DNA of 64,000 bases from Tabrizicola sp. (GTDB lineage Bacteria > Pseudomonadota > Alphaproteobacteria > Rhodobacterales > Rhodobacteraceae). The notes under the pieces were generated by a model that saw nothing but the letters and a program-made list of their open reading frames with translations, was not told where the DNA came from and did no database searches. This document shows, piece by piece, positions 15,745 to 64,000 of the stretch. How positions within the stretch are numbered: the first letter of the stretch is position 1; each line of letters opens with the position of its first letter. The stretch covers positions 62,001-126,000 of the forward strand of contig NZ_JAEULO010000052.1 of the NCBI RefSeq assembly GCF_016793705.1, written 5' to 3'. A program made the position numbers and the translations under genes.

Positions 15745-15825
15745 TGCCTCCTGCGTCGCGCCTTCGGCTTCTCGTCGGAGGGGCCGGGCGAGGAGCGACG
15801 AAGTCGACGACGAGCGGTTTTCCAG

Positions 15826-15900
15826 AAGTTAAGATTTCCCTAATCTCCGCGACCAAGATATTGAAAATAAATGAGGATACGAGAATGTCCACTGTGGACA
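15826..15900 (-). repeat. Composite palindrome element, copy 1
   Basis: Read on the minus strand: palindrome TGTCCACAGTGGACA (15900-15886), 20 bp, core TTCAATATCTT, exactly 10 bp, ATTAGGG, 5 bp, TTAACTT. The last part forms TTAG-N7-TTAA (15843-15829). Same order and spacing as the three other copies at 45208-45281, 46978-47052 and 63347-63424. It fills most of the gap between the methyltransferase and MFS genes, and is the only copy not directly behind a stop codon. Confidence 0.85.
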
Positions 15901-45203: not shown

Positions 45204-45207
45204 CAAA

Positions 45208-45281
45208 CCTTTCGAATTCCTTAACGTTCGCAATCAAGATATTGATTTTGCGTAGAAATCAAGAAATGTCCACCGTGGACA
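45208..45281 (-). repeat. Composite palindrome element, copy 2
   Basis: On the minus strand: palindrome TGTCCACGGTGGACA (45281-45267), 20 bp, ATCAATATCTT (45246-45236), 10 bp, GTTAAGG, 5 bp, GAAAGG. TTAA is at 45224-45221; the second tetramer after 7 bp is GAAA. It begins 1 bp after the efp stop codon, on the efp strand, with the terminator hairpin right beyond it. Confidence 0.85.
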
Positions 45282-46977: not shown

Positions 46978-47052
46978 TGTCCACGGTGGACAGAAATGGA
47001 GACTTTTGAAATCAATGGCTTGGCTGCGGACGTTAGGGGTTTCTTAGGGTTC
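46978..47052 (+). repeat. Composite palindrome element, copy 3
   Basis: Palindrome TGTCCACGGTGGACA (46978-46992), 18 bp, ATCAATGGCTT (47011-47021), 10 bp, GTTAGGG, 5 bp, TTAGGGTT. TTAG (47033-47036), 7 bp, TTAG (47044-47047). It begins 2 bp after the epmA stop codon, on the epmA strand; together with copy 2 it brackets efp-epmA with both copies pointing outward. Confidence 0.88.
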
Positions 47053-47075
47053 TAGCGTCGTCCCCCCACCCCCGG

Positions 47076-47256: not shown

Positions 47257-47350
47257 ACGCCGGAATTGTGCCGGTTACGCCCAGTGGTCTTGCATTGGGG
47301 GCGTGAGGGGCGCAAAGAGGGCGCGTTTCGTTTGCAGGGAAACCCATGCC

Positions 47351-48379: not shown

Positions 48380-48384
48380 GGGGC

Positions 48385-48406: not shown

Positions 48407-48486
48407 GGGTCTTGTCCCTTGATTCTGGTCAAGGCGCGCCCACCTTGGACGTGGCATAGGCCGGGCGTCGGCAAGGGATGCAAGCG

Positions 48487-48969: not shown

Positions 48970-49038
48970 GCGCGCGCTGCGGCAGGGCGGCGTTAAGGCT
49001 GGCCTGCGAGGCTTGCCCCCGAGTTGAAGGGGGTGCCC

Positions 49039-49650: not shown

Positions 49651-50111
49651 TCGGCAAGCTGATCGGTTCTCCGGCGGCGGTAAGCGCGCTGGGCGAGGCG
49701 GCGCAGGGGGTGGCGGAGGTCTTCCTGCCCTCGGCGACGAAGAAGATGGAACTGTCGGCCGAGGCGCAGATGGCGGCGCTGCGGCAGCTGGGGGAGGAGT
49801 ATCAGCACCCCGCGCTGAGCTGGTTCGACCGGCTGGTGAACGGGCTGAACCGGTTGCCGCGACCGTTTCTGGCTTTCGGGACGCTGGGGCTGTTCACCTA
49901 TGCCATGGTCGACCCGGAGGCCTTTGCCAGGCGGATGGTGGGGCTGAATGCGGTGCCGGAGCCGCTGTGGTGGCTTCTGGGCGCCATCGTGGCGTTCTAT
50001 TTCGGGGCGCGGGAGACGCATTATTTCCGCTCGCGCGGGGTGGTGTCGCCCTTTGCGGCAGGTGGCGCGGCGGAGGAGAATGCGGCGCTGGAGGACTGGC
50101 GGCAGGGGTGA
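49641..50111 (+). CDS. GTA-type holin (GTA_holin_3TM family)
   Basis: Forms the membrane lesion through which the endolysin passes. The 156-residue protein fits the 3TM holin family named after gene transfer agents: an amphipathic N-terminal half with the segment LGEAAQGVAEVFLPSATKK, then a helix near 71-90 (FLAFGTLGLFTYAMV) and a second near 108-124 (WWLLGAIVAFYFGARE), followed by a polar tail. The start overlaps the endolysin stop by 10 bp. It ends 69 bp before argS. Confidence 0.9.
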   Translation: MGVIGKLIGSPAAVSALGEAAQGVAEVFLPSATKKMELSAEAQMAALRQLGEEYQHPALSWFDRLVNGLNRLPRPFLAFGTLGLFTYAMVDPEAFARRMVGLNAVPEPLWWLLGAIVAFYFGARETHYFRSRGVVSPFAAGGAAEENAALEDWRQG

Positions 50112-50180
50112 TCCCCCTGCCTCTTCTTGACCTCTGACCGGGCCTCTGGCATGGCCTTTGGCATCAGAGGATGTGATCAA

Positions 50181-51923
50181 ATGAACCTGTTCGCCGATAT
50201 CCGTGAGCTTGTGGTGGCCGAGCTTGAGGCGCTGATGGCCTCGGGCGGGTTGCCCTCGGGGCTGGACCTTGCCGGGGTCGCGGTGGAGCCGCCGCGCGAT
50301 GCGGGGCATGGCGAGATGGCGACCAATGCGGCGATGGTGCTGGCGAAGCCTGCGGGGATGCAGCCCCGCGCGATTGCCGATGCGCTGGCGGCGCGGCTGA
50401 TGGCGGACCCGCGCGTGGCGGGGGCGGATGTGGCGGGGCCGGGGTTCCTGAACCTGCGGCTGCAGCCTTCGGCCTGGCAGGGGCTGGTGCGGGACGTGCT
50501 GGAGCAGGGGGAGGCATATGGCCGGTCCGCGCTGGGGCAGGGGCGCCGCGTGAACGTGGAGTTCGTGAGCGCCAACCCGACGGGGCCGATGCATGTGGCG
50601 CATGCGCGGGGGGCGGTGGTGGGGGATGCGCTGGCCTCGCTCTTGGACTTCGCGGGCTATGCGGTCACGCGGGAGTATTACATCAACGATGGCGGGGGGC
50701 AGGTCGACGTGCTGGCGCGGTCGGCCTATGAGCGCTATCGCGAGGCGAACGGGTTGTCGCCCGAGATCGCAGAGGGGCTTTATCCGGGGGATTACCTGAT
50801 CCCGGTGGGCGAGGCGTTGAAGGCCATGCATGGCGACCGTTTGCTCGATATGCCGGAGAGCGAGTGGCTGGCGGAGGTGCGGGTCTTTGCCACCGACATG
50901 ATGATGGCGATGATCCGGCACGACCTCGCGGCTCTGGGCGTGGAGATGGATGTCTATTCGTCCGAAAAGGCGCTGTACGGGACGGGCCAGATCGAGGCGG
51001 CGCTGGAGCGGCTGAAGGGCCTGGGGCTAATCTATACCGGCGTGCTGGAGCCGCCGAAGGGCAAGGCGCCGGAGGATTGGGAGGCGCGGGAGCAGACGCT
51101 GTTCCGGTCGACCGCGTTCGGGGACGACCAGGACCGGCCGGTGCAGAAGTCGGACGGCTCTTGGACCTATTTTGCGCCGGATATCGCGTACCACTGGAAC
51201 AAGGTGGAGCGCGGGTTCGACGAGCTGATCAACATCTTCGGGGCGGACCATTCGGGCTATGTGAAGCGGCTGAAGGCGGTGGTGGCGGCGCTGTCGGAGA
51301 ACCGGGTCAGCCTGGATATCAAGCTGATCCAGCTGGTGAAGCTGCTGAAGGGTGGGCAGATCGTCAAGATGTCGAAGCGGGCGGGGACTTTCGTCACGCT
51401 CCGCGACCTGATCGACGAGGTGGGGCCGGATGTCGTCCGCTTCGTCATGCTGACACGGAAGAACGACGTGGCGCTGGACTTCGACTTCGACAAGGTGACG
51501 GAGCAGTCGAAGGACAACCCGGTTTTCTATGTGCAATATGCCAATGCGCGGGTGAACTCGATCCTGCGCAAGGCGCGCGAGGCGGGGCTGGATGTGAGCG
51601 ATGCCTCGCTTTCCGCCGCGCATCTGGCGCATCTGGGGCACGAGGCCGAGATGGGCGTGATCCGCAAGCTGGGCGAATGGCCCCGGCTGGTGGAGATTGC
51701 CGCCAAGGGGCACGAGCCGCACCGGGTGGCCTTCTACCTGTATGAACTGGCGTCGGACTTTCACGGGCTCTGGAACCGGGGCAACGAAGACGACAGCTTG
51801 CGGTTCCTCCAGGGGGATACCGCAAAATCTCAGGCGAAAATCGCCCTTGCCCGGGCCGTGGGCGTTGTTATTTGCGCAGGCCTTGGTATCCTTGGCGTGA
51901 CTCCGGTCGAGGAAATGCGCTGA
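50181..51923 (+). CDS. argS: Arginyl-tRNA synthetase
   Basis: Charges tRNA-Arg. The 580-residue class I synthetase has the N-terminal additional domain (about 1-110), the HIGH-type signature [20 protein letters not shown] (HVAH), the KMSKS-like loop [18 protein letters not shown] and a DALR anticodon domain at the C-terminus. ATG 50181 ([11 protein letters not shown]) fits the family; a frame opening at 50127 is not supported. Possibly first gene of the operon argS-SPOR-nagZ-scpA-scpB, in which the next genes follow with short gaps or overlaps. Confidence 0.97.
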
Positions 51924-51997
51924 CGAAACGGCGCCCCGCCGGGCATGAGGCGTGAATGCGAGGGGCGGATCAACCACCCCGCAGGCAGGGGCAGCAG

Positions 51998-52981
51998 ATG
52001 GCGGACGCGGATCATGATTTCGGCGGCAGCTTCTCATCCGAGAGGCAGGCACCGCGACGGGGTGCCCGGGATGCTGCGGCTGCCGACAAGCTGCAACGGA
52101 AGGTCAACCTTGCCGGTGGCCTGACCTCGTTGGCGCTGGTCGTGGGCCTTGGCGTCTGGGGCTACAAACTGGCGGTGCGCGATGTGAACGGCGTGCCGGT
52201 CATTCAGGCGCTGGACGGACCGATGCGGATTTCGCCCGCCGATCCGGGGGGCGAGGTCACCGACAACCAGGGCCTTGCGGTGAACACGGTGGCCGCGGTG
52301 GGGATTGCCGCCCCGCCGCCGGAAAAGCTGGTGCTGGCCCCGCGCCCGGTCGAGCTTGCGCCCGAGGATACGGCGGGTCTGGGCGGTGCGCCGATGCCGG
52401 GCCTGTCCGAAGCTTCGGCTCCTTCGACCGCGTTGACGGCAGATGCCGATCTGGCGCTGGCAGCGGACCCGGCGACCGAGAGCGCCAACCCGACCGAAGT
52501 CGCGGTCGATGCGGCCCTCGCCGAGGCGCTGGGGGAAGTCCCCGGTGATGTGGCGATGGTCGATGATGTGACATTGGCCGAGGAAATGGCCGAGGCTGCA
52601 CCCGAGGGGGCGATCACCGTCTCGCCCCGTCCGAAGGCCCGGCCCGGCGCGCGCGAGGCTGTTGCGGCGGCTCCGGCGGAAGCGGTGGCGATGGCCGCAG
52701 TGAGCGAGGTGGACCCGGCGACGATTGCCCCCGGCACAAGGCTGGTGCAGTTCGGCACCTTCGACACCGCCGAGGAAGCGCGGGCGGAATGGATGCGCCT
52801 GCAAGGCCGGTTCGGCGAGCTGATGGCGGAAAAGGCGATGGTGGTGCAGCCGGCGGAAAGCGGCGGGCGCACCTTCTATCGCCTGCGCGCGCATGGCTTC
52901 GAGGGCGAGGATGACGCGCGGCGCTTCTGCTCGGCCTTCGTCAGCGAGAATGCGGTCTGCATTCCGGTGCCGCAGAAATGA
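51998..52981 (+). CDS. SPOR-domain membrane protein
   Basis: A 327-residue protein that should bind septal, denuded peptidoglycan. It has a charged cytoplasmic N-terminus (1-35), one transmembrane helix (about 36-56, GGLTSLALVVGLGVWGYKL), a low-complexity Ala/Pro/Glu linker (75-235) and a C-terminal SPOR domain (about 245-325) with RLVQFGTFDTAEEARAEW and FYRLRAHGFEGEDDARRFC. ATG 51998 with GGGGCAGC before it. Its stop overlaps nagZ by 4 bp. Confidence 0.92.
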   Translation: MADADHDFGGSFSSERQAPRRGARDAAAADKLQRKVNLAGGLTSLALVVGLGVWGYKLAVRDVNGVPVIQALDGPMRISPADPGGEVTDNQGLAVNTVAAVGIAAPPPEKLVLAPRPVELAPEDTAGLGGAPMPGLSEASAPSTALTADADLALAADPATESANPTEVAVDAALAEALGEVPGDVAMVDDVTLAEEMAEAAPEGAITVSPRPKARPGAREAVAAAPAEAVAMAAVSEVDPATIAPGTRLVQFGTFDTAEEARAEWMRLQGRFGELMAEKAMVVQPAESGGRTFYRLRAHGFEGEDDARRFCSAFVSENAVCIPVPQK

Positions 52982-53973
52982 CCGTGGGTCGCGGCGCCGT
53001 GATCTTCGGCTGCGCCGGGCCGAAGCTTCTGCCCGAGGAGCGCGCGTTCTTTCGCGAGACCGATCCGTTCGGCTTCATCGTCTTTGCCCGCAACATCGAG
53101 GACCCGACGCAGTTGCGGCGACTGACGAGCGACTTGCGCGAGGCGGTGGGCCGGGATGCGCCAGTACTGGTGGATCAGGAGGGCGGACGTGTGCAGCGGC
53201 TGCGCGCGCCGCATTGGCGCGAATGGACGCCGCCCTTGGATACGGTGGACGGGGCGGGGTCGCTGGAGGCGGCAGAGCGGGTGATGCGGCTGCGCGCCAT
53301 GGTGATGGGGGCGGAACTGGCCAACGTCGGGATCGACGCCGACTGCATCCCGACGCTGGACGTGGTGCGGACCGGGACGCATCCCTTTCTGATGAACCGC
53401 TGCTACGGGCGCGACCCGGTGACGGTGGCGCGCATCGGGCGGGCGGTGGCCGAGGGGCTGATGGCGGGCGGCGTGCTGCCGGTGATGAAGCACATGCCGG
53501 GGCATGGGCTTTCCCACGTCGATACGCATCATGATTTGCCGACGGTGGATGCAAGCCATGAGGAGCTGACGGCGGTGGATTTCGCGCCGTTCCAGGCGCT
53601 GAACGACCTGCCGATGGCGATGACGGCGCATCTGGTCTTTGCGGCGCTGGATGCCGGACGGCCTGCGACCCAATCCCCGGAGATGATCCGGGTGATCCGG
53701 GAGGAGATCGGGTTCAGGGGCCTCCTCATGTCGGACGACCTGAACATGCAGGCGCTGTCGGGCACGCTGGCCGAACGCACGGCGCGGACGATCGCGGCGG
53801 GGGTGGACATCGCGCTCCACTGCAAGGGCGACATGGCCGAGATGGTTTCGGTTGCTGGGGCGGCGGGGGTGATGGGGCCGGAGGCTCTCAAGCGGGCCGA
53901 GGCGGCGGTCGCGGCGCGGCGGCCTGCGACGCTGGACGTCGAGGCGGCGCTGGCAGAGCTGGCGCATGGCTGA
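52978..53973 (+). CDS. nagZ: Beta-N-acetylhexosaminidase (peptidoglycan recycling)
   Basis: Cytoplasmic GH3 enzyme that removes GlcNAc from anhydromuropeptides. The 331-residue protein has DPFGFIVFARNIEDPTQLR, the substrate loop DQEGGRVQRLR, the catalytic loop KHMPGHGLSHVDTHHDLP with its Asp-His dyad, and the nucleophile Asp in LLMSDDLNMQAL. It is full length. It overlaps the SPOR gene (ATGA) and the scpA start (8 bp). Cell-wall genes next to scpAB and argS are usual in alphaproteobacteria. Confidence 0.96.
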   Translation: MTVGRGAVIFGCAGPKLLPEERAFFRETDPFGFIVFARNIEDPTQLRRLTSDLREAVGRDAPVLVDQEGGRVQRLRAPHWREWTPPLDTVDGAGSLEAAERVMRLRAMVMGAELANVGIDADCIPTLDVVRTGTHPFLMNRCYGRDPVTVARIGRAVAEGLMAGGVLPVMKHMPGHGLSHVDTHHDLPTVDASHEELTAVDFAPFQALNDLPMAMTAHLVFAALDAGRPATQSPEMIRVIREEIGFRGLLMSDDLNMQALSGTLAERTARTIAAGVDIALHCKGDMAEMVSVAGAAGVMGPEALKRAEAAVAARRPATLDVEAALAELAHG

Positions 53974-54754
53974 GGCAGACTGGGACCAACCCGAGCGCAT
54001 CTCGCCCGAGGACCGGCTGGCCGCCGAGGCGCTGATCGTCGACGTGGACGGGTTTGAAGGGCCGCTGGACCTTCTCCTGACGCTGAGCCGCACGCAGAAG
54101 GTGGACCTGCGGAAGATTTCCGTCCTGAAACTGGCCGAGCAGTATCTGGGCTTCGTCGAAAAGGCGCGGACGCTGCGGATTGAGCTGGCGGCGGATTACC
54201 TGGTGATGGCGGCCTGGCTCGCCTTTCTGAAATCGCGGCTGCTGTTGCCGCCGGAACCGGGCGACGAGGGGCCAAGCGCCGAGGACCTGGCGGCGCATCT
54301 GGCCTTCCAGCTGGAACGGTTGCAGGCGATGCGGGATGCCGCCGCCCGGCTGATGGGGCGCGACCAGCGGGGACGAGATTTCTTCGCGCGTGGGGTGCCG
54401 GAAGACCTGACGCATCACCGCAAGGTCAGCTATACGGCAACGCTGCTGGACCTGATGCGCGCCTATGCGCAGATCAGGACGAAGGACGAGTTCCGGCCCT
54501 TTGTGCTGGATCGGGAGCATGTCTACACGATGGAACAGGCGCTGGAGCGGATGCGGGGGCTGATCGGCTATGTCGGCGACTGGGCCACGCTGGTGAGCTT
54601 CCTGCCGGACGGCTGGGACGCGACGCCGATGGCGCGGCGGTCCTCGCTGGCCTCGCATTTCGCGGCGGTGCTGGAGATGGCGAAGCGGGGCCAAGTGGTG
54701 CTGCGGCAGGGCGAGACCTTCGCGCCCATCGAATTGCGCCGGAAGGAGGGGTGA
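53966..54754 (+). CDS. scpA: Segregation and condensation protein A
   Basis: Kleisin subunit of the SMC-ScpAB condensin. The 262-residue protein has the N-terminal kleisin segment DVDGFEGPLDLLLTLSRTQKVDL, the helix ISVLKLAEQYLGFVEKA and LAADYLVMAAWLAFLKSRLL, and a C-terminal winged-helix region near 190-262. It overlaps nagZ by 8 bp and scpB by 4 bp (ATGA). The smc gene is not in the window. Confidence 0.96.
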   Translation: MAEADWDQPERISPEDRLAAEALIVDVDGFEGPLDLLLTLSRTQKVDLRKISVLKLAEQYLGFVEKARTLRIELAADYLVMAAWLAFLKSRLLLPPEPGDEGPSAEDLAAHLAFQLERLQAMRDAAARLMGRDQRGRDFFARGVPEDLTHHRKVSYTATLLDLMRAYAQIRTKDEFRPFVLDREHVYTMEQALERMRGLIGYVGDWATLVSFLPDGWDATPMARRSSLASHFAAVLEMAKRGQVVLRQGETFAPIELRRKEG

Positions 54755-55392
54755 TGCCCCAGGACGAGGAAGACAGCCTGTTCGACGCTCCGCCGATGGG
54801 CGAACAGGAGCGGATGGTGGAGGCGATCCTCTTTGCCAGTGCCGAGCCGGTGACGCTGGCCGAGCTGGAGGCGCGGATGCCGCATGGCGCGGACCCGGCG
54901 GAGGCGCTGGTGCATCTGAAGCGGCGCTATGAGGGGCGGGGGGTGAACCTGGTGCACGTGGGCGACGCCTATGCCTTCCGCACCGCCGCCGACCTTGGCT
55001 TCCTGATGCGGCGCGAGACGGTGGAGGTGCGGAAGCTGTCGCGCGCGGCGATCGAGACCTTGGCGATCGTGGCCTATCATCAGCCGGTGACGCGGGCGGA
55101 GATCGAGGAAATCCGGGGGGTTGCGGTCAGCCGGGGGACGGTGGATCAGCTGATGGAGCTGGAATGGATCCGGCTGGGGCGGCGGCGGATGACGCCCGGC
55201 AGGCCGGTGACGTTTGTGGTGACGGAGACGTTCCTCGACCATTTCGGCCTGGAATCGGCGCGCGACCTGCCGGGGTTGAAGGAGCTGCGGGCGGCGGGAT
55301 TGCTGGACTCGCGGCCCCTGCCGGGGCAGGCTGCGACGGCGGACGAGGACGAGGAAGCCCAGGTCGGGCAGAGCGAGTTGTTCGAGGACTGA
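54751..55392 (+). CDS. scpB: Segregation and condensation protein B
   Basis: Regulatory kite subunit that dimerises and binds ScpA. The 213-residue protein has two winged-helix domains: MVEAILFASAEPVTLAELEA (about 17-90) and LSRAAIETLAIVAYHQPVTRAEIEEIRG in pieces (about 95-180). The acidic C-terminal tail (DEDEEAQVGQSELFED) is dispensable in relatives. The start overlaps the scpA stop. GAGGCGGGG follows its stop as ribosome site for the next small gene. Confidence 0.96.
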   Translation: MMPQDEEDSLFDAPPMGEQERMVEAILFASAEPVTLAELEARMPHGADPAEALVHLKRRYEGRGVNLVHVGDAYAFRTAADLGFLMRRETVEVRKLSRAAIETLAIVAYHQPVTRAEIEEIRGVAVSRGTVDQLMELEWIRLGRRRMTPGRPVTFVVTETFLDHFGLESARDLPGLKELRAAGLLDSRPLPGQAATADEDEEAQVGQSELFED

Positions 55393-55402
55393 GGAGGCGG
55401 GG

Positions 55403-55603
55403 ATGAACCTGAACGGCCTTTTCAACATGCTGGCGAAGATGCTCGTTCGCAGCGCCATGGATGCTGGAGTGGACTATGCCGCACGGCGGGGCAAGCCCGA
55501 GGCGGAGATGACGCCGGAGGAACGCGAGCAGGCGAAGAAGGCTCGGGATTTGGCCTCGCGGGCAAAGCAGGTGCAGAAGGTTACTCGCCGGCTGTGGCGC
55601 TGA
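55403..55603 (+). CDS. Small conserved protein after scpB
   Basis: A 66-residue basic protein: NLNGLFNMLAKMLVRSAMDA, then AARRGKPEAEMTPEEREQAK and RDLASRAKQVQKVTRRLWR. The N-terminal helix is amphipathic, the remainder very charged. It is 10 bp after scpB with GAGGCGGGG before the ATG. No known domain; not TatA, though tat genes often follow scpB in relatives. Its last 23 bp overlap the end of the convergent gene. Confidence 0.7.
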   Translation: MNLNGLFNMLAKMLVRSAMDAGVDYAARRGKPEAEMTPEEREQAKKARDLASRAKQVQKVTRRLWR

Positions 55604-56048
55604 AGCCGCAGGGTCGGGCGAGGCCCAGCGAGGCCAGCGTCCGCGACAGGGGGTCGGGCAGGGCGAGGCCGGGCTGGATGTAGAGGCCGGTCTTGAGGCG
55701 GTCATCGAGCCGCGTCATCCATGTGACCGTCAGGAAGGGCGCAGGCGGCGGGCGCGAGAGGTAGGGGTCGACCGAGCCCAACGCGCCGCCGACGAAGGCT
55801 TGCAGGCTGTCCGACAGGGCATCGACCTCGGCGCGCGACGCCCGCCAGCGCATCGGCTCTGGCCCCGGCATCCCGGCTCCGGTGACCTGCACCAGGCTGA
55901 TCCAGCCGTCCGACAGGGCGAAGGTGCAGAAGACGGCGTGATCGGGCGAGGCATCGGGCCAGACCTCGAATGTCAGGCGGTTGGCATCGGCGGGCGGACC
56001 CGCGATCATCGCGGCAAGGCACAGCGCTAGTGTCCAGCGAGCCCGCAT
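55581..56048 (-). CDS. Periplasmic protein of unknown function
   Basis: A 155-residue protein with a signal peptide (MRARWTLALCLAAMIAGPPADA). The mature protein, with FEVWPDASPDHAVFCTFALS, VTGAGMPGPEPMRW and PFLTVTWMTRLDDRLKTGLY, has two cysteines (one in VFCTF, one in RPCGFSA) that may pair. No recognised family. It converges on the small gene after scpB and overlaps it by 23 bp, without a terminator hairpin. It reads downstream of the dCTP deaminase gene, 52 bp away. Confidence 0.7.
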   Translation of the reverse strand: MRARWTLALCLAAMIAGPPADANRLTFEVWPDASPDHAVFCTFALSDGWISLVQVTGAGMPGPEPMRWRASRAEVDALSDSLQAFVGGALGSVDPYLSRPPPAPFLTVTWMTRLDDRLKTGLYIQPGLALPDPLSRTLASLGLARPCGFSATAGE

Positions 56049-56100
56049 CGACGCCCTCCCTCGGGGTCTGCGCGCGGGTCAGCATAGCACGAAATGGGTG

Positions 56101-57180
56101 TCAGGCCGAGCGGAACTGTTTGGCGAGCTTCAAGCCCTGGCCCTGGTAGTTCGAGGCGATCCCCGCGCCATAGAGGGTTTCGGGGCGTTCGGCCATGCGT
56201 TCGTAGACCAGGCGGCCCACGACCTGCCCATGTTCCAGTACGAAGGGGGCTTCGTGGCAGCGCACCTCCAGCACTCCACGGGACCCCGCGCCCCCGGCGG
56301 CGGCGTGGCCGAAGCCGGGATCGAAGAAGCCCGCGTAGTGGACGCGGAATTCGCCGACCATGGCGAGGTAGGGGGCCATCTCGGCGGCATAGTCGAGGGG
56401 GATCGTCACCGCCTCGCGGCTGACGAGGATGTAGAAGGCGCCGGGGTCGAGGATGATGCGGCCGTCGGTGGTGTGCAACTCCTCCCAGAAATCGGAGGCG
56501 GGGTAGTGGCCGATCCGGTCCAGATCGACGACGCCGGTATGCGGCTTGGCGCGGTAGCCGACGAGGGTGCCGGTGGCGGGCTTCAGGTCGACGGAAAAGC
56601 CGAGGCCTTCGGAGATCACCGCCTCGCCTGACACCAGCGGGTCGGCGGCGTGCAGCGCGGTCAGTTCGGCGTCGGTGAGGACCGCCTGTCCCCGGCGGAA
56701 GCGGATCTGGTTCAGCCGCTGGCCCTCGCGGACGAGGACCGAGAAGCTGCGCGGGCAGACCTCGGCATAGAGCGGGCCGGTATAGGCTTCGGGGATGCGG
56801 TCGAATTCCACGCCGCCGTCGGTGATGGTGCGGGTCAGAAGGTCGAGTCGGCCGGAGGAGCTTTTGGCGTTCGCCACGGCAGTCACGCCAGGGGGCAGGG
56901 CCAGCCGTTCGGCCAGCGGGATGACGTAGACGCAGTTCTTCTCCAGCACCGCGCCTTCTGCGAGGTTCACCTTGTGCATGGTGAATTCGTCCAGTCGTTC
57001 CTGCACCGTCCGGCCATGCCCTGCCAGGAACGAGGCGCGGACGCGGTAGGCGACGGGACCAAGCCGCAGGTCGAGGCTGGCGGGCTGAATCTGGTCGTCG
57101 CGGATGGCGGGCGCGGCGGCTAGTGCGCCGTCAGTGATCAGCTGGCGCAGGGCCTGCGCGGGCAGAACTCCGGATGTCAT
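56101..57180 (-). CDS. dcd: dCTP deaminase, double-length alphaproteobacterial form
   Basis: Deaminates dCTP to dUTP on the way to dTMP. The 359-residue protein is about twice the length of E. coli Dcd (193), with two dCTP deaminase/dUTPase-like halves; the N-terminal half has IRDDQIQPASLDLRLGPVAYR and AVANAKSSSGRLDLLTRTI, the second half REAVTIPLDYAAEMAPYLAM and FFDPGFGHAAAGGAG. Active-site segments SSSGR and FFDPGF are present in separate halves. A two-domain form of this kind is known in alphaproteobacteria. It begins 71 bp from the tRNA. Confidence 0.9.
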   Translation of the reverse strand: MTSGVLPAQALRQLITDGALAAAPAIRDDQIQPASLDLRLGPVAYRVRASFLAGHGRTVQERLDEFTMHKVNLAEGAVLEKNCVYVIPLAERLALPPGVTAVANAKSSSGRLDLLTRTITDGGVEFDRIPEAYTGPLYAEVCPRSFSVLVREGQRLNQIRFRRGQAVLTDAELTALHAADPLVSGEAVISEGLGFSVDLKPATGTLVGYRAKPHTGVVDLDRIGHYPASDFWEELHTTDGRIILDPGAFYILVSREAVTIPLDYAAEMAPYLAMVGEFRVHYAGFFDPGFGHAAAGGAGSRGVLEVRCHEAPFVLEHGQVVGRLVYERMAERPETLYGAGIASNYQGQGLKLAKQFRSA

Positions 57181-57247
57181 CGCATTCCCCCGCGGGCTGG
57201 ATATGAAACCGCCCGCGCTGCCATGGGGCAGGCGGGCGGGTTTTCGA

Positions 57248-57325
57248 TGGTCGGGCCGGAGAGATTCGAACTCTCGACCTCCCGCCCCCCAGACGGACGC
57301 GCTAACCAGGCTGCGCTACGGCCCG
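57248..57325 (-). tRNA. tRNA-Pro(GGG)
   Basis: On the minus strand: acceptor CGGGCCG paired with CGGCCCG, D arm with GCGCAGCCTGGTTAGCGC, anticodon stem TCCGT/GCGGG (two G-U pairs) with loop CTGGGGG, giving anticodon GGG, T arm AGAGTTCGAATCTCT, discriminator A, and the CCA end encoded in the gene (57250-57248). The gene is complete. A GC stretch and TTTTCG follow as a possible terminator. Confidence 0.95.
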
Positions 57326-57385
57326 ACACGGGGGGATACATACCGATATTCCGGGCCGGGGCAAGCGGGAAAGCGCATGGAGGCG

Positions 57386-58039
57386 TCAGCCGATGCCGCC
57401 TTCGGCCCGCGCGGCCAGCCGGGCGCGCAGCGCGGCCAGCCGCCGGGCGATTTCGGCCAGCTCTCGCCGGTTCCCGGATCCCGAATTGCGCGGCAAGGTC
57501 CTGATCATACTGGCAAAAGTAGTGTCGGTGCGCAGGGTGGGCTTCTTCGGCGGCATCGTGCGGGCGAGAGCCGGGGGCGCGTCGAAGGCCTGGTCGAAGA
57601 GCGGCAGGGTGCTTTGTTCGACCGGCGCCCGGGCGGGCCGTGATGGCGGTGCCGAGACGGCTTCGGGCTCGGGGTCGTCGATGGCGATGAAGCCGGCTTC
57701 GGGAACCTCGATCTCCGGCGCCTCGACTGCCGCCGCAGGCGGGGCGATCAGATCCTCGACGCTGACCGAATCGTCGGTCAGCCCGGCGACATGGCGCACG
57801 CCCTGGTCGCGCAGGATCTTCTGCACCCCGCGGATCGTCAGGCCTTCGTCATGCAGAAGCCGCTTGATCCCGGTGAGGAGCGCCACATCGGAGGGGCGAT
57901 AGTAACGCCGCCCCCCGGCGCGTTTGACCGGCTTGATCTGCGGAAAGCGGCTTTCCCAGAAGCGCAGCACATGCGCGGGGGTGTCAAGCGACTCGGCAAC
58001 CTCGCTGATGGTGCGGAAGGCGTCGGGCGACTTGTCCAT
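57386..58039 (-). CDS. MerR family regulator next to ihfA
   Basis: A 217-residue protein with an N-terminal MerR-type helix-turn-helix (about 8-75: [22 protein letters not shown], then [20 protein letters not shown] in pieces) and a C-terminal part with no recognisable effector domain, Pro/Ala-rich at 95-165 and ending in an Arg-rich helix ([21 protein letters not shown]). The arrangement plsX-fabH-ihfA-merR is conserved in alphaproteobacteria; the target is unknown. It starts 9 bp after the ihfA stop. Confidence 0.88.
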
Positions 58040-58048
58040 CCGCCGTCC

Positions 58049-58351
58049 TTAGCGCTTCTTCCCGGCGGCCACGCGATCCTTCATCAGATGCGAGGGGCGG
58101 AAGGTCAGGACGCGGCGAGGCGAGATCGGCACTTCCTCGCCCGTCTTGGGGTTGCGACCGACGCGGGCGGTCTTGGCGCGGACCGAAAAGGTGCCGAAGG
58201 AGGAAATCTTCACCGTCTCGCCCGAGGCGAGCGCGTCGGACATATGTTGCAGGACCGCTTCGACGAGATTGGCAGATTCGTTTCGGCTGAGGCCCACTTC
58301 ACGAAACACGGCTTCGGAAAGGTCCATCCGGGTCAGGGTCTTCTCGCTCAT
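58049..58351 (-). CDS. ihfA: Integration host factor alpha subunit
   Basis: DNA-bending nucleoid protein, half of the IHF heterodimer. The 100-residue product is complete: [50 protein letters not shown] in pieces, with the DNA-intercalating Pro in [23 protein letters not shown] 58351 fits the family; the frame from 58414 adds 21 residues. Between fabH (58442) and this start there are 90 bp, rich in AT, that may hold a promoter. Confidence 0.96.
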
Positions 58352-58441
58352 CTCGTCCCCCACGAGTTGTTGTGGCGCGAGGATGGGCCGGATGGATTTA
58401 CGAGTCAATATCAAGCACTTGGGAAGCGCCGTTAAAGGCGA

Positions 58442-59410
58442 TTACCAGCGCAGGACGACCGAGCCCCAGGCAAGGCCGCCGCCGATGGCCTCGGTCACTA
58501 CAAGATCGCCCGGCTTGATCTGGCCGCGCGCCTTGCCGACGGACAGGGCGAGGGGAATCGAGGCGGCGGAGGTGTTGCCGTGATCCTGCACGGTGACGAC
58601 GACACGCTCCATCGGGACCTGCATCCGTTTCGCGGTGCCCTCGATGATGCGGATATTGGCCTGGTGCGGGACGATCCAGTCGACATCTTCTGCGGTCAGC
58701 CCGGCCTTGTCCAGCGCGGTATGCGCAGTTTCGGCAAGCTTTTCAATGGCATGGCGGAAGACTTCCTTGCCTTCCATCACCAGATGCCCGGTCGTCCCGG
58801 TCGAGGTGCCGCCATCGACGTAGAGGATATCCTTGTAGCGCCCGTCGGAATTGAGGTCGGTGGCGAGGATGCCGCGGTCGTTGCTGGTGCCCTGGCCCTC
58901 GACCGCTTCCACCACGACGGCACCAGCGCCGTCACCGAAAAGGACGCAGGTGGTGCGGTCGTTCCAGTTCATCAGGCGGGAGAAGGTCTCGGCCCCGATC
59001 ACCAGCACACGGGCCGCCTGGCCGGAGACGATCAACGCATTGGCATTGGCCATGGCGAAGACGAATCCGGCGCACACGGCCTGGACGTCGAAGGCGAAGC
59101 CCTTGGTGATCCCCAATGCGGCCTGCACCATGGTGGCGACCGAGGGGAAGGTGAGGTCGGGGGTGGAGGTGGCGACGATGATGGCATCCACGGCGTCGGC
59201 CTCGATCCCGGCGTCCGACAGGGCGGCGATGGCGGCACGGGTGGCGAGGTCGCTGGTCAGCTGGCCCTCGGCGGCGAAATGGCGGCGCTCGATGCCGGAG
59301 CGTGAGCGGATCCATTCGTCCGATGTCTCGACGATGGTTTCGAATTCAGAGTTGGGGACGACGCGGTCGGGCAGGTAATGCCCGACGCCCCTGACTGCGG
59401 CGCGTATCAT
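58442..59410 (-). CDS. fabH: 3-oxoacyl-ACP synthase III
   Basis: Starts fatty acid synthesis by condensing acetyl-CoA with malonyl-ACP. The 322-residue protein has the catalytic triad: Cys in FDVQAVCAGFVFAMANANAL (near 112), His in DWIVPHQANIRIIEG and Asn in VQDHGNTSAASIPLAL. The ATG at 59410 overlaps the plsX stop (ATGA). The longer frame to 60235 is a shadow across plsX. Confidence 0.97.
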   Translation of the reverse strand: MIRAAVRGVGHYLPDRVVPNSEFETIVETSDEWIRSRSGIERRHFAAEGQLTSDLATRAAIAALSDAGIEADAVDAIIVATSTPDLTFPSVATMVQAALGITKGFAFDVQAVCAGFVFAMANANALIVSGQAARVLVIGAETFSRLMNWNDRTTCVLFGDGAGAVVVEAVEGQGTSNDRGILATDLNSDGRYKDILYVDGGTSTGTTGHLVMEGKEVFRHAIEKLAETAHTALDKAGLTAEDVDWIVPHQANIRIIEGTAKRMQVPMERVVVTVQDHGNTSAASIPLALSVGKARGQIKPGDLVVTEAIGGGLAWGSVVLRW

Positions 59411-60534
59411 TCGGAAGGATTGCCTCCGGTCCCGGCCTTTTCGGCCCCCACTTGCGCATCCTGCCCCGCGACTTCGGCGGATGCAACCCGCGCGGCGAGC
59501 CGTTCCAGGAAACGGACTTGTGCCAGCTGGTAGGCAAGGCCGATGGCGGCAGCGATCCCGGTCGCATCGGCGGAACCGTGCGATTTGACCACGGTGCCGT
59601 TCAGGCCGAGGAAGACGCCGCCGTTCACACGGCGCGGGTCGATCCTGAGTTGCAGCCGTTTCAGCGCGCCACGGGCCAGCAGCGCGCCGAGCTTGGCCAG
59701 CAGGGTCGAGGTCAGGGTCTGCTTCAAGAGATCGCCGACCAGCCGCGCGGTGCCTTCGATGGCTTTCAGGGCGACATTGCCGGTGAAGCCGTCGGTCACG
59801 ATCACGTCGACCCGGTCGGAGAGGATGTCGGTGCCCTCGACGAAGCCCACGTAGTCGAAACTGCCCGCCTCGGCACTGCGGGAGAGCAGGGTGTTCGCCT
59901 CTTGCAGCTCGGCCCGGCCCTTGTGCTCTTCGGTGCCGACGTTCAGGAGGCCGACGCGCGGGCGGGCGATCGCGAGGCCGTTGCGGGCGTAGGAGGCGCC
60001 CATGAAGGCGTATTGCAGAAGGTCGGCGGGGTCGGCCTTCACGTCGGCGCCCATGTCGAGCATGACGTTGGTCTTGCCGGGCGTGGGTGTCGGGAAGAAG
60101 CTGGCGATGGCGGGCCGGTTCAGGCCGGGCAGCTTGCGCAGCCGCAGCATCGACACCGCCATCAGCGCGCCGGTGTTGCCGCAGGAGACCGCCGCCGCCG
60201 CCTCGCCATCCTTCACCGCATCGATGGTTGACCACATCGAGGTGCCCTGCCCGTGGCGCATGACCTGGGCGGGCTTGTCCTCCATCGTCACCACGCGTTC
60301 GGCATGGCGGAGCGTCACGCGCGAGGCAAGGTCGGGGTGCCGGGCGAGGAGGGGGCTGAGTGCGGCCTCGTCCCCGTGCAGGATCACGTCCATGCGGGGA
60401 TGGCGGGTCAGCGAATCGACCAGGCCGACAACGACGGCTGCCGGCCCGCGATCGCCACCCATGGCGTCAACTGAAATGACTACGCGCTCGGGAGCCGTGG
60501 CAGACGCAGACGCATACTCGGGTCCGGTGGCCAT
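59407..60534 (-). CDS. plsX: Phosphate acyltransferase PlsX
   Basis: Converts acyl-ACP to acyl-phosphate for phospholipid synthesis. The 375-residue protein has VISVDAMGGDRGPAAVVVGL, TLRHAERVVTMEDKPAQVMR, VDAVKDGEAAAAVSCGNTGALMAVSM in pieces (AAVSCGNTGALMAV), and VIVTDGFTGNVALKAIEGT. The N-terminal 20 residues before VISVDAMGG are not conserved and the start could be slightly further in. Upstream is rpmF, 23 bp away, giving the well-known rpmF-plsX-fabH operon. Confidence 0.97.
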   Translation of the reverse strand: MATGPEYASASATAPERVVISVDAMGGDRGPAAVVVGLVDSLTRHPRMDVILHGDEAALSPLLARHPDLASRVTLRHAERVVTMEDKPAQVMRHGQGTSMWSTIDAVKDGEAAAAVSCGNTGALMAVSMLRLRKLPGLNRPAIASFFPTPTPGKTNVMLDMGADVKADPADLLQYAFMGASYARNGLAIARPRVGLLNVGTEEHKGRAELQEANTLLSRSAEAGSFDYVGFVEGTDILSDRVDVIVTDGFTGNVALKAIEGTARLVGDLLKQTLTSTLLAKLGALLARGALKRLQLRIDPRRVNGGVFLGLNGTVVKSHGSADATGIAAAIGLAYQLAQVRFLERLAARVASAEVAGQDAQVGAEKAGTGGNPSE

Positions 60535-60557
60535 GGGTCAATCGCGCGGGGCGTGGC

Positions 60558-60764
60558 TTACGCCGCGTCCTCGTCGATGTCGACTTCGCGCGCCATCGAG
60601 ACGACTTCGCGCGAATCGTAGTGGCCGCAGGCGCTGCACACATGGTGCGGACGCTTCAACTCGCCACAGTTCGGGCAGTCGTTCGGATTGGCAGCGACCA
60701 GCGCGTCATGCGCACGGCGCATGTTGCGGCGGGATTTCGTGGTGCGGTTCTGCGGGACAGCCAT
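60558..60764 (-). CDS. rpmF: 50S ribosomal protein L32
   Basis: The 68-residue product [20 protein letters not shown] at the start, then a zinc ribbon with [21 protein letters not shown] (both CxxC pairs intact, so the zinc-containing form), and the tail [17 protein letters not shown]. Upstream of plsX and fabH as in most bacteria. The 184-bp gap to DUF177 contains no gene that I can see. Confidence 0.98.
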
Positions 60765-60948
60765 GTCTCAACCTCGGGCAGTGGGGACATGCGCCCCGGA
60801 TTTCCTTTGCGATTTCAGCGCGATCCTGCCAGATTCGGCAATAGGGAACGGATGCTGTCTCGCAGCTTGAATGAGGCGCGGAACATACTCGGATTTCGGG
60901 TCGGCGCAACCCCCTTTTCGCGGGTACTGTAAGGGCATGAGCGGGCGG

Positions 60949-61524
60949 TCACTCATCCCCCTCCGATCCCGGTTCGCCCTTTGCCGCAAGCTTCGCCGCA
61001 AGGCCTTGCAGGCCGGCGAAAGGCTTCAGATCGGCGTCGGTCAGGGGCGTCACGCCATCTGCCGCGTGCAGCCCGTCCGCAAACTCCGCCCCCGGCGCGC
61101 GGGGGTAGAGCGGCAGGGCGAGGGCTAGCGCCTCGGCGGCGATCTCGGCAAGGTCGATCACCTCGGGCATCGGCTCGACGCTGTCGTCCTCGGGCATCTC
61201 CACCTCGTCGCCTTCGGGCGTCTCCAGCCCCGCGACAAAGCGGCGGCGGACGGGTTCGGAGACTTGCGCCGGAACCGGGGCCAGCGTGATGCCGCAGGCC
61301 TGGTCGGCTGCCGCAGTCAGGGTCGCGTCCAGCACCAGCTCGTCACGCCCCGCCGGGCGAATCTCGCCGGTCAGCTCCAGCCGGTAGAGCGCGATCAGCC
61401 CAAGGTCCTCGGCCAGGGCGGCGCGTTCCCCGGCATCGGGGCGATAGCTGAACCGCGTGGGCTTGCGCGGGCTGAGGCCGCCGGCGCGGAAGCGGGTGGG
61501 GCGGGAGATGTCTGCGTTGGTCAT
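60949..61524 (-). CDS. DUF177 (YceD) family protein
   Basis: A 191-residue acidic protein of the YceD/DUF177 family, involved in 23S rRNA/ribosome metabolism in plants and E. coli though the mechanism is unresolved. Visible: FRAGGLSPRKPTRFSYRPDA, AADQACGITLAPVPAQVSEPV with a Cys in place of the family's CxR pair, and DLAEIAAEALALALPLYPRAP. ATG 61524 gives the family start (MTNADISRPTRF); the frame from 61614 adds 30 atypical residues. It is upstream of rpmF in the same direction, as usual. Confidence 0.88.
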   Translation of the reverse strand: MTNADISRPTRFRAGGLSPRKPTRFSYRPDAGERAALAEDLGLIALYRLELTGEIRPAGRDELVLDATLTAAADQACGITLAPVPAQVSEPVRRRFVAGLETPEGDEVEMPEDDSVEPMPEVIDLAEIAAEALALALPLYPRAPGAEFADGLHAADGVTPLTDADLKPFAGLQGLAAKLAAKGEPGSEGDE

Positions 61525-61670
61525 GTCACGCTTTCCGGGAACTGCGGCCCGAGGCCCGGGTGCGGCGTTCCATTCTTGTGCAAGGGGCTGATCATCTGAT
61601 ATCCCGATTGCCAAGGGTTTTGAAGAACCCGCTTCGGCAGATGATGTTTCAGCGGGACATGAGGGCAGGC

Positions 61671-62159
61671 ATGGCAGATTTCCGGTTGTCGCGGTCGTTC
61701 CTGGCGGCCTGCCAGGTGTCGCGCAAGCAATGCCTTATGCTGGCGCTGGTTGCCTCGGTCGCCGCCTGCGCGCCGGTCTACCGCAACCACGGCTATGTTC
61801 CCAGCGAAGACGAACTGGCGCTGGTCGAGGTGGGCACCGACACGCGCGAGACCGTTGGCCAGAAGATCGGGCGACCCTCGACCTCGGGCCTTCTGAACGA
61901 TGTCGGCTGGTTCTATGTGCAAAGCCGCTACCGCCATTTCGGCCCGCGCGAGCCGAAGGAGGTCGACCGTCAGGTGTTGGCGGTGACCTTTAACGAGGCG
62001 GGGACGGTCGAGAATATCGCCCGCTACGGGCTGGAGGATGGCCGCGTGGTCGAGATCTCGCGCCGGGTCACCGAGACCAACGTGAAGGGCCTGTCCTTCA
62101 TCCAGCAGATCCTGGGCAACTTCGGCCGGGTCGACGCGGGCAGCCTGCTGGCGGACTGA
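61671..62159 (+). CDS. bamE: Outer membrane assembly lipoprotein BamE
   Basis: Part of the BAM complex that inserts outer-membrane proteins. The 162-residue protein has a signal sequence with lipobox VAAC (LMLALVASVAAC), then YVPSEDELALVEVGTDTRETV, the SmpA/OmlA core GRPSTSGLLNDVGWFYVQSR and a terminal segment FIQQILGNFGRVD. Frames open upstream to 61560, but the ATG at 61671 gives the best signal peptide (MADFRLSRSFLAACQVSRKQ before it); ATG 61737 (MLALVASVA) is also possible. Divergent to DUF177. Confidence 0.9.
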   Translation: MADFRLSRSFLAACQVSRKQCLMLALVASVAACAPVYRNHGYVPSEDELALVEVGTDTRETVGQKIGRPSTSGLLNDVGWFYVQSRYRHFGPREPKEVDRQVLAVTFNEAGTVENIARYGLEDGRVVEISRRVTETNVKGLSFIQQILGNFGRVDAGSLLAD

Positions 62160-62164
62160 TCCGC

Positions 62165-62560
62165 TCACTCCTCCGGTTGGAAGGTCAGCGCGACCCCGTT
62201 GATACAGTAGCGCAGGCCCCCCCGGTCGCGCGGTCCGTCGGGGAAGACATGGCCCAGATGCGCGGCGCAGCGCGGGCAGTGCACCTCGGTCCGGACCATG
62301 AAATGGCTGCGGTCCTCGGATTCTTCCACCGCCTCGGGCGCGATCGGCGCTGTGAAGCTGGGCCAGCCGCACCCCGACTCGAACTTGTCCTCCTGCTCGA
62401 AGAGCGGCGCGCCGCAGCACACGCAATGGAAGGTTCCCGCCTCTTTCGGGAAGCCGGGATGCGAGAAGGCGCGTTCCGTCCCGTGCTGCCGCGTCACCCG
62501 GTAGGCGGCTTCGTCCAGTTCGGCCCGCCATTCGGCATCGGTCTTCTCGATCTTGTCCAT
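62165..62560 (-). CDS. msrB: Peptide methionine (R)-S-oxide reductase
   Basis: Reduces methionine-R-sulfoxide with thioredoxin. The 131-residue protein has the zinc CxxC pairs ([12 protein letters not shown] and [17 protein letters not shown]), [16 protein letters not shown], and the catalytic Cys in [14 protein letters not shown] 62560 ([15 protein letters not shown]) is the family start; the open frame from 62629 overlaps the next gene's start. It converges with bamE, 5 bp apart. Confidence 0.96.
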
Positions 62561-62619
62561 GCTGCGTCCCCTGTTCGGATATGCGATAGATAGGACGTCA
62601 CGGCGCGGGGGAAAAGGGC

Positions 62620-63345
62620 GTGGAGCCATTGGGGAAAGGCGGAATGGTGGCGCGGCTGGCGCAGGGGGCGGCGGACATGCGCCGCGTCATGACCTTCCGC
62701 CGGGCAGCCTTTCCGCGTGTCGCAGGCGAGGAGGAGGACGCTCAGGACGCCCTTTCCGCCCATGTGATGGTCGAGGGCGAGGGCGGGCTGCTGGCTTATT
62801 TCCGGGTCATGCTCTTCGGCTGGGGGGCCGGGCTGGAACTGGGCTATGTGGCGCGGTTCTACGATGTCGGGCCTCTGGCGGGCTATGCGAGGCCGGTCGC
62901 GGAGATGGGGCGGTTCTGCGTGGCGCCCGGCGGGGTGCATCCGGATGTGCTGCGGCTGGCCTGGGGCGCGATGACGCGGCTGGTCGACGAGGGGCAGGCG
63001 GGGTTGATCGTGGGGTGTTCCTCGTTCCGGGGGGCCGACTGGACACGGCACCGGGCGGGGCTTGCATTGCTGGCGGAGGAGTTCGTGGGGCCTGCAGAGC
63101 ACTTGCCGGGTCGGAAGGCGGCGGAGATGGTCGACTATCCGGCGCTTGTGGGGCCGGTCACGGACCGCAGGGCCTCGCTCGCCGGGTTGCCGCCGCTGTT
63201 GCGGACCTATCTGGGGATGGGGGGCTGGGTCTCGGATCACGCTGTGGTGGACCGGGAGCTGGACACGCTGCATGTCTTCACCTGCGTGGAGGTCGACCGG
63301 GTGCCCCCGGCGCGGGCAGCGAGCCTGCGGGCGGTGGCGGGGTAA
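62620..63345 (+). CDS. OlsB-like GNAT N-acyltransferase
   Basis: A 241-residue member of the Acetyltransf_5/OlsB-type GNAT family, in which OlsB adds a 3-hydroxyacyl chain to ornithine for ornithine lipids. The segments [59 protein letters not shown] and [21 protein letters not shown] follow the family. The substrate is inferred; it is shorter than most OlsB and could act on other amines. The frame starts at GTG 62620; ATG 62644 is an alternative. The stop TAA is 1 bp before the palindrome of copy 4. Confidence 0.75.
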
Positions 63346-63346
63346 G

Positions 63347-63424
63347 TGTCCACGGTGGACATTTTCAGATACTCAAGAAGATTCAATATCTTATGAGTTT
63401 TCGTTAGGGTGGTGTTAAGGGTTG
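63347..63424 (+). repeat. Composite palindrome element, copy 4
   Basis: Palindrome TGTCCACGGTGGACA (63347-63361), 19 bp, ATTCAATATCTT (63381-63392), 10 bp, GTTAGGG, 5 bp, TTAAGGGTT. TTAG (63404-63407), 7 bp, TTAA (63415-63418). It begins 1 bp after the stop of the OlsB-like gene, on its strand. The best-kept copy. Confidence 0.9.
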
Positions 63425-63434
63425 CGCCGGACGG

Positions 63435-63974
63435 TTATCCCCCGCCATATACAGCCTTGATCTCCGCTCCGATGGCATAGGCTTCGGCTTCCACCGCCTG
63501 ATGGTCGGTGACGTAGCGCCGGGCGAAGTCCATCAGGCCCCAGCGGCGAAACTGTTCGACATGCTTCACCTCGTGGCCCCAGAGGGCGATGTTGGTCTGG
63601 GCGTCCCCGGCGTCGTGGAAGATGATCGTGTCGATGGCGGTGACGGCAGTGGCGTCGCTGTAGCGCATCGAGAGGGACTGGATGGTGGCGTCCTCGGCTA
63701 CGCCGACGCGGTATTCGATGCTGTCGAGGAGGTCGGCGGGATACCAGGCGAGAAGGGCTTCGCGAATCCGCGGGGGCATGGGTTCCGTGCCCTGCGCCCA
63801 GGCGGCGTCGCGGGAGGCGACCAGCGCGTTGGCAAGCGCGGTGGCGGCGATCTCGATCCCGGTCTCGAATGCGGCGTTTGGGTCGAGAAGGCCCTGGGCC
63901 TGCGGGGCCGTCGCGGGGAGGGCCGCGAGGCAGAGGAGAGCGGCAAGCTTCAGGGGGGCACGTCTGCGGCGCAT
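63435..63974 (-). CDS. Secreted HExxH protein (DUF4157-like)
   Basis: A 179-residue protein with a signal peptide (MRRRRAPLKLAALLCLAALPATAPQAQ). The region WGHEVKHVEQFRRWGL has the zinc-metallopeptidase HExxH, and DHQAVEAEAYAIGAE downstream offers a glutamate as third ligand. It resembles DUF4157, short secreted metallopeptidase-like domains that occur with toxins and surface proteins. Whether it is active is unknown. It converges with the OlsB-like gene; composite copy 4 lies between them. The start is 26 bp from the window end, so a longer N-terminus cannot be ruled out. Confidence 0.8.
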   Translation of the reverse strand: MRRRRAPLKLAALLCLAALPATAPQAQGLLDPNAAFETGIEIAATALANALVASRDAAWAQGTEPMPPRIREALLAWYPADLLDSIEYRVGVAEDATIQSLSMRYSDATAVTAIDTIIFHDAGDAQTNIALWGHEVKHVEQFRRWGLMDFARRYVTDHQAVEAEAYAIGAEIKAVYGGG

Positions 63975-64000
63975 GGGCGAAGGGTGCCAAGGATGGGAGC

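Follow-up and report, generated by a model that had tools for sequence, protein, structure and literature searches.

What is the composite repeat that occurs four times in the DNA analysed here, and how far does it extend beyond this locus? The window, a stretch of 64,000 nucleotides from a Tabrizicola genome, carries a short palindrome followed by two further conserved parts, and all four copies of the preliminary description were recovered at their positions and on their strands (Table 1). The palindrome TGTCCACNGTGGACA has four exact matches in the window and five at no more than 2 mismatches, compared with a mean of 0.11 and a maximum of 2 at the same tolerance in 100 shuffles of the window. 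Model R1, which was built from the core and the third module with the palindrome (box 1) left out, matches the four copies only. A search of the window against Rfam at the gathering score returned one tRNA and no family match for the element. The repeat is confirmed, and its family is much larger than first reported. The source genome (G000; 3.84 Mb in 73 contigs) contains 83 exact palindromes, with 0 for the reversed control pattern, and T. aquatica RCRI19 (G175) contains 68 palindrome copies; these numbers are far above chance. Sites with other first boxes also exist, beyond the palindrome-bearing copies.

Table 1. Positions of the composite copies and of their flanking genes in the window.
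Feature	Positions	Strand	Remarks
Copy 1, whole composite	15823..15900	-	box 1 TGTCCACAGTGGACA 15886-15900; IHF-like core 15854-15866; dyad module 15828-15844
Copy 2, whole composite	45204..45281	-	box 1 TGTCCACGGTGGACA 45267-45281; core 45235-45247; module 45209-45225
Copy 3, whole composite	46978..47053	+	box 1 46978-46992; core 47010-47022; module 47032-47048
Copy 4, whole composite	63347..63424	+	box 1 63347-63361; core 63381-63393; module 63403-63419
ORF with methyltransferase domains	14737-15744	+	flanks copy 1
MFS ORF, start uncertain	called 15871-17103	+	other flank of copy 1
EF-P gene	45283-45849	-	stop 1 bp before copy 2 start
Class II (D, K, N) tRNA-synthetase-like gene	45935-46975	+	stop 2 bp before copy 3
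Gene with GNAT domain	62620-63345	+	stop 1 bp before copy 4

Counterparts of the four copies were found in other genomes. Copy 1 corresponds to L165 in T. thermarum, which has GCGCCGCGCGTGGCGC as its box 1, and copy 3 to L419 in the same species (TGTCCACGCGTGGGCA). Copy 2 has counterparts in T. aquatica (L100, identical box) and in G296 (L170, TGTCCCTTGCAGGGACA), and copy 4 in T. aquatica (L096). The GC skew of the window turns from -0.15 to +0.19 within positions 44001-48000, between the EF-P and the tRNA-synthetase-like genes, and the switch falls between copies 2 and 3. This point at 46 kb was rejected as a replication origin and is probably not one, because parS lies on another contig (C39) and the gene strand switches at the same point. 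Two further ORFs of the window may be mentioned. The ORF at 63435-63974 on the minus strand carries an eCIS_core domain and is convergent with the GNAT-domain gene preceding copy 4. The ORF at 49024-49650 carries GH108 and PG_binding_3 domains, a pair also known from gene-transfer-agent endolysins.

The element is a composite of approximately 75 bp that consists of the palindrome, 20-21 bp, the IHF-like sequence WWTCAANNNNTTG, 9 bp, and the dyad GTTARGGATTTSTTAA. The palindrome opens this composite in 81 of the 83 G000 copies, the two weakly scoring exceptions being L041 and L063, and in all 68 G175 copies, which were called without a formal cut-off and have a lowest score of 10.6. The distance from the palindrome to TCAA is 21 nt in 128 of the 151 copies, 20 nt in 19, 22 nt in 3, and 19 nt in 1, the last being copy 3 of the window; these values are mildly optimised, since each is the best match within offsets 8-39 on either strand. 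The conditions that were to refute the preliminary description, chance-level numbers and loose spacing, do not apply, as the copies far exceed chance and 147 of the 151 have a distance of 20 or 21 nt. Its core needs correction: the core is WWTCAANNNNTTG rather than [AT]TCAATATCTT, and ATATC is present only in a minority. The spacing of 20 nt is found in 19 of 83 G000 copies and in 0 of 68 T. aquatica copies. By eye, some copies of this G000 subset, which includes L006, L011, and L022, seem to contain an extra inverted repeat (for example GATTTTC..GAAAATC) in the stretch that separates the core from box 1.

The 128 copies with a spacing of 21 nt define the element column by column. Positions 1-15 are TGTCCACGGTGGACA; of all 151 copies, read in element orientation, 137 have G at the centre of the palindrome, 13 have A, and 1 has C. 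Positions 16-36 are AT-rich, with G22 as the most conserved (77%). Positions 35-47 are WWTCAANNNNTTG, in which C38, A39, T45, and T46 are conserved at 98-99% and G47 at 81%, and this core fits what we take to be the IHF consensus, WATCAANNNNTTR. Positions 50-57 are YGYGGGCG, with TT replacing GG at 53-54 in 26 of 128 copies. Positions 57-73 form the dyad GTTARGGATTTSTTAAS, and weak conservation extends out to position 78. The AT content is 0.61 in positions 16-36, 0.57 in 37-47, and 0.60 in 57-73, compared with 0.30-0.34 in the flanks. One part of the analysis (A1) used 143 of the 151 copies. The third part had been described as a TTAR module; such a module is present, but its real form is a 17-bp dyad, GTTARG-N5-STTAAS, with TTTACC, TTCAGG, GGAAA, and GGCAA as frequent variants. 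The GAAAGG of copy 2 is accounted for by the frequency of such variants. Taken as a whole, each copy is probably a composite protein-binding site in DNA, as judged from its sequence organization.

The same places are often occupied in different species. In a comparison of the 83 G000 sites with the 68 G175 sites, both flanks match in 22 cases and one flank in 11 + 10; there are 2 weak conflicts and 38 sites with no match. A reading as attachment sites was rejected on this comparison. At least one flank matches a G000 site in 22 of 26 T. thermarum sites, 23 of 30 G296 sites, and 48 of 68 G175 sites, and both flanks do so in 11 of 26, 8 of 30, and 27 of 68, respectively. The best reading of these patterns is that the elements are vertically inherited. 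Sixteen orthologous G000/G175 pairs also bear out the proposal that selection acts on several contacts and that the copies do not stem from recent duplication: the spacer (positions 16-36) is near saturation, with an identity of 0.43 compared with 0.36 in random pairs, and the motifs are kept, with an identity of 0.79 for GTTARGG compared with 0.69 in random pairs. The palindrome identity of 0.99 is high because both sets were found by the palindrome.

In several species another inverted repeat stands in the place of the palindrome (TGTCCC-N5-GGGACA, GCGCC-N6-GGCGC), often at orthologous positions. In G296, box 1 is TGTCCC-N5-GGGACA, and TGTCCCGGGCAGGGACA dominates; 29 of the best 30 R1 matches have fully complementary 5-bp arms at 19-20 nt before TCAA. 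Among 26 T. thermarum (G171) sites, out of at least 98, GCGCC-N6-GGCGC is found in 13, and the remainder includes TGCCC and mixed forms. Box 1 of G299 is mostly TGCCC-N6-GGGCA, with one GCGCC copy (L414), and that of G067, G158, and G187 is TGTCCCA-like. The six copies viewed in G046 have TTCCCCCTGTGTTACA or a close sequence, part of them as an inverted repeat (CCTGT-N3-ACAGG in L205, L404, and L412). T. aquatica additionally has TGTCCACGCAGGACA (L333). The box is of the TTCCCCCTGTGTTACA type and reversed in L417 (G046, genus g31), and box 1 may therefore work in either orientation. One arm pair or its 17-bp form is common to 29 of 30 sites in G296, 96 of 125 in G000, and only 13 of 26 in T. 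thermarum. Box 1 arms are thus mostly common within a genome and different between species, in the manner of a dialect, although the mixed genomes (T. thermarum with its GCGCC/GGCGC half, and G299 with L414) count against clean dialects. Since the flanks are orthologous and the boxes differ, the places often stay while the word in box 1 changes.

Site counts per genome obtained with R1 are lower bounds. G000 has at least 124 places, 80 of them with the exact palindrome, and each of 21 genomes of the genus has at least one, two of them with only at least 1 and at least 5 (at an E limit of 1). In a strict setting (E 0.01), a match is present in 21 of 196 genomes from the whole order. Outside the genus, two scans gave at least 12 and 14 places in G046, at least 11 and 16 in G067, and at least 3 each time in G158; the first scan also gave 1-3 mostly partial matches in four genomes of genus g8 and single matches in others, and the second at least 1 place in G187. 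The exact palindrome is present in 6 of 292 genomes drawn from the order and is numerous only in G000 and G175; copies from further genomes of the genus, outside this draw, also have it. In the GTDB contigs, the strict pattern was found in 49 stretches, all from Rhodobacterales or from unresolved alphaproteobacterial or Pseudomonadota MAGs. Genus g8 has a related element (L189-L191, L206, L208, and L237-L257); six genomes have at least 3-5 copies apiece, and in two no copy was found. Its 14-16-bp palindromes vary from copy to copy within a genome and are followed by GGGGTTAAGGYGTTGRTTTTGTTGGG-like and GTTARGGNTTTGTTARGG-like sequence. An element of this type is also present in uncultured Roseicyclus (L300 and L339).

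With the gene calls of a simple custom caller, 65 of 138 scorable element junctions are convergent, compared with 26 of 176 other junctions at the same loci, and 9 of 138 are divergent, compared with 46 of 176. Where the gene on the left has the same direction as the element, a median of 2-3 bp separates the end of its stop codon from box 1. The distance to the gene on the right is loose (medians 84-153 bp). Elements in tandem contexts are in sense orientation in 38 cases and antisense in 26.

The sites are also spread evenly over the chromosome, with a mean gap of 25-52 kb. The 61 gaps of T. aquatica have a coefficient of variation (CV) of 0.57, compared with 0.975 in simulations, and 0 of 5000 simulations are as low, the null here and below being uniform placement and not random intergenic placement. 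Both short and long gaps are too few; a single gap exceeds 100 kb, and this largest gap of 186 kb begins 9 kb from parS. For the exact copies of G000, the CV is 0.69 compared with 0.95 (P 0.007; 22 contigs, nearly all with at least two sites). For 122 G000 sites on 43 site-bearing contigs, which cover 3.50 of 3.84 Mb, it is 0.69 compared with 0.99, and 0 of 3000 simulations are as low. This set omits five weak matches found by R1 only, and all 127 sites give 0.65 (without simulation). The evenness is weaker in G296, where 48 matches give 0.77 (P 0.036), although R1 finds only part of the sites of this genome.

Some elements contain an insertion sequence (IS). One IS end occurs at four places in G000, each of which lies within an element; three of these elements have the exact palindrome, and the fourth (L153) has a different box. 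A related IS end is present in 7 of the 26 T. thermarum sites fetched, four of the seven having been chosen as contig-end sites; none was found in L424, the one contig end fetched from G299. The G000 IS tail partially matches the end of an IS30 transposase (NF033563, 34.8 bits, below the cut-off of 80), and IS30 is annotated under three of the eight matches listed for this tail. The IS enters the centre of the third-module dyad: 10 bases from the start of GTTARGG are kept and are followed by the IS end GGTTAAC, so that TTAA keeps the distance that it has in an intact element. GGTTAAC probably belongs to the IS: these copies have G at position 67, where most others have T. In L433, where the IS runs from position 1535, the presumed original GTTAAGG follows the other IS end. 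The IS end appears to restore half of the split dyad, and the insertion may therefore leave the site usable. Preferred targets of IS30 include nearly palindromic hot spots, according to excerpts of PMC9333248, and entry into the third-module dyad resembles this preference; most copies seen are without an IS, which looks like a visitor.

Box 1 could act as a protein site in DNA or as a hairpin. The covariation test covered the columns outside box 1 of the 128 copies with 21-nt spacing, which had been chosen by box 1, and indicated no helix there: 36 of the 40 strongest couplings are no more than 6 columns apart, and the remaining four show complementarity below expectation. An RNA fold is thus unsupported outside box 1, and the changes within box 1 are mixed. 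Imperfect boxes were read at 42 of the 44 G000 sites that only R1 finds. Both arms are intact around a different centre in 13 of them, one arm is altered in 27, and both are altered in 2, of which L264 is non-complementary and L153 is a perfect 12-bp palindrome. The one-arm changes break the stem in 14 cases and still allow pairing in 13 if G-U is included. An intrinsic terminator in box 1, or a function of the element in the 3' end of mRNA, would fit the short distance to the upstream stop codon, the calculated hairpins of the box words (-5.7 to -10.4 kcal/mol), the terminator-like scan that copy 2 passes, the 13 one-arm changes that still pair with G-U, and the higher T content of the 8 nt after box 1 in sense contexts (2.48 compared with 1.71, P 0.011). 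However, TTTT occurs within these 8 nt in just 19% of 110 sense copies, 35 of 145 copies lack an upstream gene on their own strand, about half of the one-arm changes break the stem, and terminator-like matches in window positions 44500-64000 number 8 compared with 10.2 in shuffles, which is no excess. A terminator also has no need for an identical sequence at 83 sites. We consider this explanation quite unlikely for the element as a whole; the modest T excess suggests that some copies may also serve as terminators. We read box 1 as a putative homodimer site that in places may also form a hairpin, and a homodimer site would imply a changed protein specificity between species. A hairpin would also give symmetric changes between species, which counts against a protein-only reading.

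Genome-wide tags with species dialects and a fairly even spread invite comparison with the DNA uptake sequences DUS and USS. The dialect could be read by an uptake, conjugation, or packaging protein, the last in the manner of lambda cosB with its IHF site, and with even spacing tagging most long fragments for self-recognition in DNA exchange. In excerpts of the literature on these systems, the DUS of Neisseriaceae come in dialects (PMC3630211), USS are highly abundant and relatively evenly distributed (PMC7811141), and DUS pairs are associated with terminators; the present sites are intergenic. However, the average spacing of H. influenzae USS in these excerpts is approximately 1,000 bp; one site per 25-52 kb makes the present element some 25-50 times sparser, far from a density of about one per kb. 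The element is moreover a 75-bp multi-box site in which mainly the first box varies between species, and a site built in this way, with its IHF-like box, points to a complex inside the cell. In viral_contigs, the composite pattern had 0 matches, and R1 matched 0 of 80 palindrome-bearing viral stretches (80 of 120 tested). Exchange tagging is therefore unlikely in our view. A viral or plasmid origin was rejected, as palindromes occur there without the composite; copy 3 had no plasmid match.

REP sequences are imperfect palindromes preceded by a GTAG-type tetranucleotide. Of 151 copies of the present element, just 8 have GTAG in the 8 nt ahead of the palindrome. An origin as a relic of a mobile family, whether a MITE, the REP of a RAYT transposase, or transposon ends, is very improbable. 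High copy number, palindromic form, intergenic position, and the IS insertions would fit such an origin, REPs being IS targets (PMC1525189, in excerpt), and the 38 G000 sites without a flank match may reflect some gain or loss. The conserved flanks at orthologous positions and the kept motifs beside near-saturated spacers argue against it, as does the occurrence of single elements, the closest pairs being approximately 1.0-1.3 kb apart.

Dyads dispersed over the chromosome could also belong to a segregation or nucleoid occlusion set of the parS, Noc, SlmA, or KOPS type. Motifs of these sets are usually conserved between species, and the dialects argue against membership. The element is not a TGTTTCACGTGAAACA-like origin-proximal site; the true parS sites are distinct from it and number 2-3 per genome at no more than 1 mismatch. 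The origin of G296 was placed near 2.22 Mb by parS because GC-skew sampling was too noisy. Around the assumed terminus opposite parS, 5 sites lie within 200 kb, with 4.6 expected, so that there is no depletion, and sites are also found near the origin. The strand bias relative to replication that had been proposed for checking is weak only: 31 of 48 G296 sites follow the fork (P 0.06), and on contig C5 of T. aquatica the six copies that are closest to parS on its left side all point towards it, which together give no clear polarity. The parS, Noc, and ter-exclusion readings were rejected, and we hold such a set to be very unlikely. Finally, an ordinary transcription-factor regulon, for example of CtrA at the third box, is extremely unlikely. 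The CtrA site pattern is TTAA-N7-TTAA; the half-sites and spacing of the third box (TTAR-N7-TTAA) fit it, and the box is at most a candidate CtrA site. Against a regulon, divergent junctions hold few of the sites, and the five of nine divergent loci scanned encode enzymes or conserved proteins with no shared theme and with nothing suggestive of the box 1 protein.

We propose that the element is inherited vertically and is a nucleoprotein site bent by IHF, that its dimer box changes fast, and that its role is most likely architectural; we put the chances of this reading at somewhat below even. Box 1 would be bound by a homodimeric protein that co-evolves with it, IHF, going by the consensus assumed above, would bend the DNA behind box 1, and a second protein would bind the third box. 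The bound proteins and the bend could together form a folded nucleoprotein complex, and the complexes may provide one anchor or boundary approximately every 25-50 kb over the chromosome. In lambda cosB and plasmid oriT, dyad or repeated protein sites are arranged around an IHF bend, and the present element is alike in combining a putative protein-site dyad with an IHF-like site. It differs in having more than 100 chromosomal copies and in the absence of the composite from the viral_contigs scan. Excerpts of PMC2817692 describe RIB/BIME-1 elements of Enterobacteriaceae such as E. coli, which bind IHF, sit at the 3' ends of transcription units, and contain REPs that are IS targets. The present element resembles them as a dispersed intergenic palindrome with an IHF-like site, a location at 3' ends, and IS insertions. 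By contrast, it has one dyad per element (151 aligned copies) and not paired opposite REPs, mostly lacks the preceding tetranucleotide, and shows no direct sign of mobility. It further differs in its third conserved module, its even spacing, its dialects, and the many positions at which copies are orthologous between species. By analogy with these IHF-binding sites at gene ends, an architectural role is the likeliest in our view, though less likely than not when taken on its own, and the distance of 2-3 bp between box 1 and the stop codon, which it leaves unexplained, counts against it.

The literature search agrees with the preliminary description in that, within the portions of papers covered, it turned up no description of an element with such a structure. 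The four palindrome words are absent from the papers searched, and the covered portions of the Rhodobacter, Rhodobacteraceae, and Tabrizicola literature on repeats and IHF contain no matching element. The elements may represent a previously undescribed form of chromosome-wide addressing, a grid assembled with IHF that keeps its positions and scaffold but changes its address word at numerous sites during species divergence, in step with a dimeric protein; we regard this as a tentative interpretation with somewhat less than an even prospect. If true, bacteria would here show rapid, concerted co-evolution of a chromosome-organising or self-recognising protein with all of its sites. The system is countable, in that close species would differ in the recognition sequence of many orthologous protein sites. 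It is an open question how a protein that binds DNA at many sites comes to alter its specificity, and the mixed and intermediate genomes would make the process readable here. If the role is architectural, the family would offer defined and deletable sites at steps of 25-50 kb for testing the organisation of alphaproteobacterial chromosomes. If it is one of self-recognition, the dialects would point to a barrier to gene exchange in Rhodobacterales.
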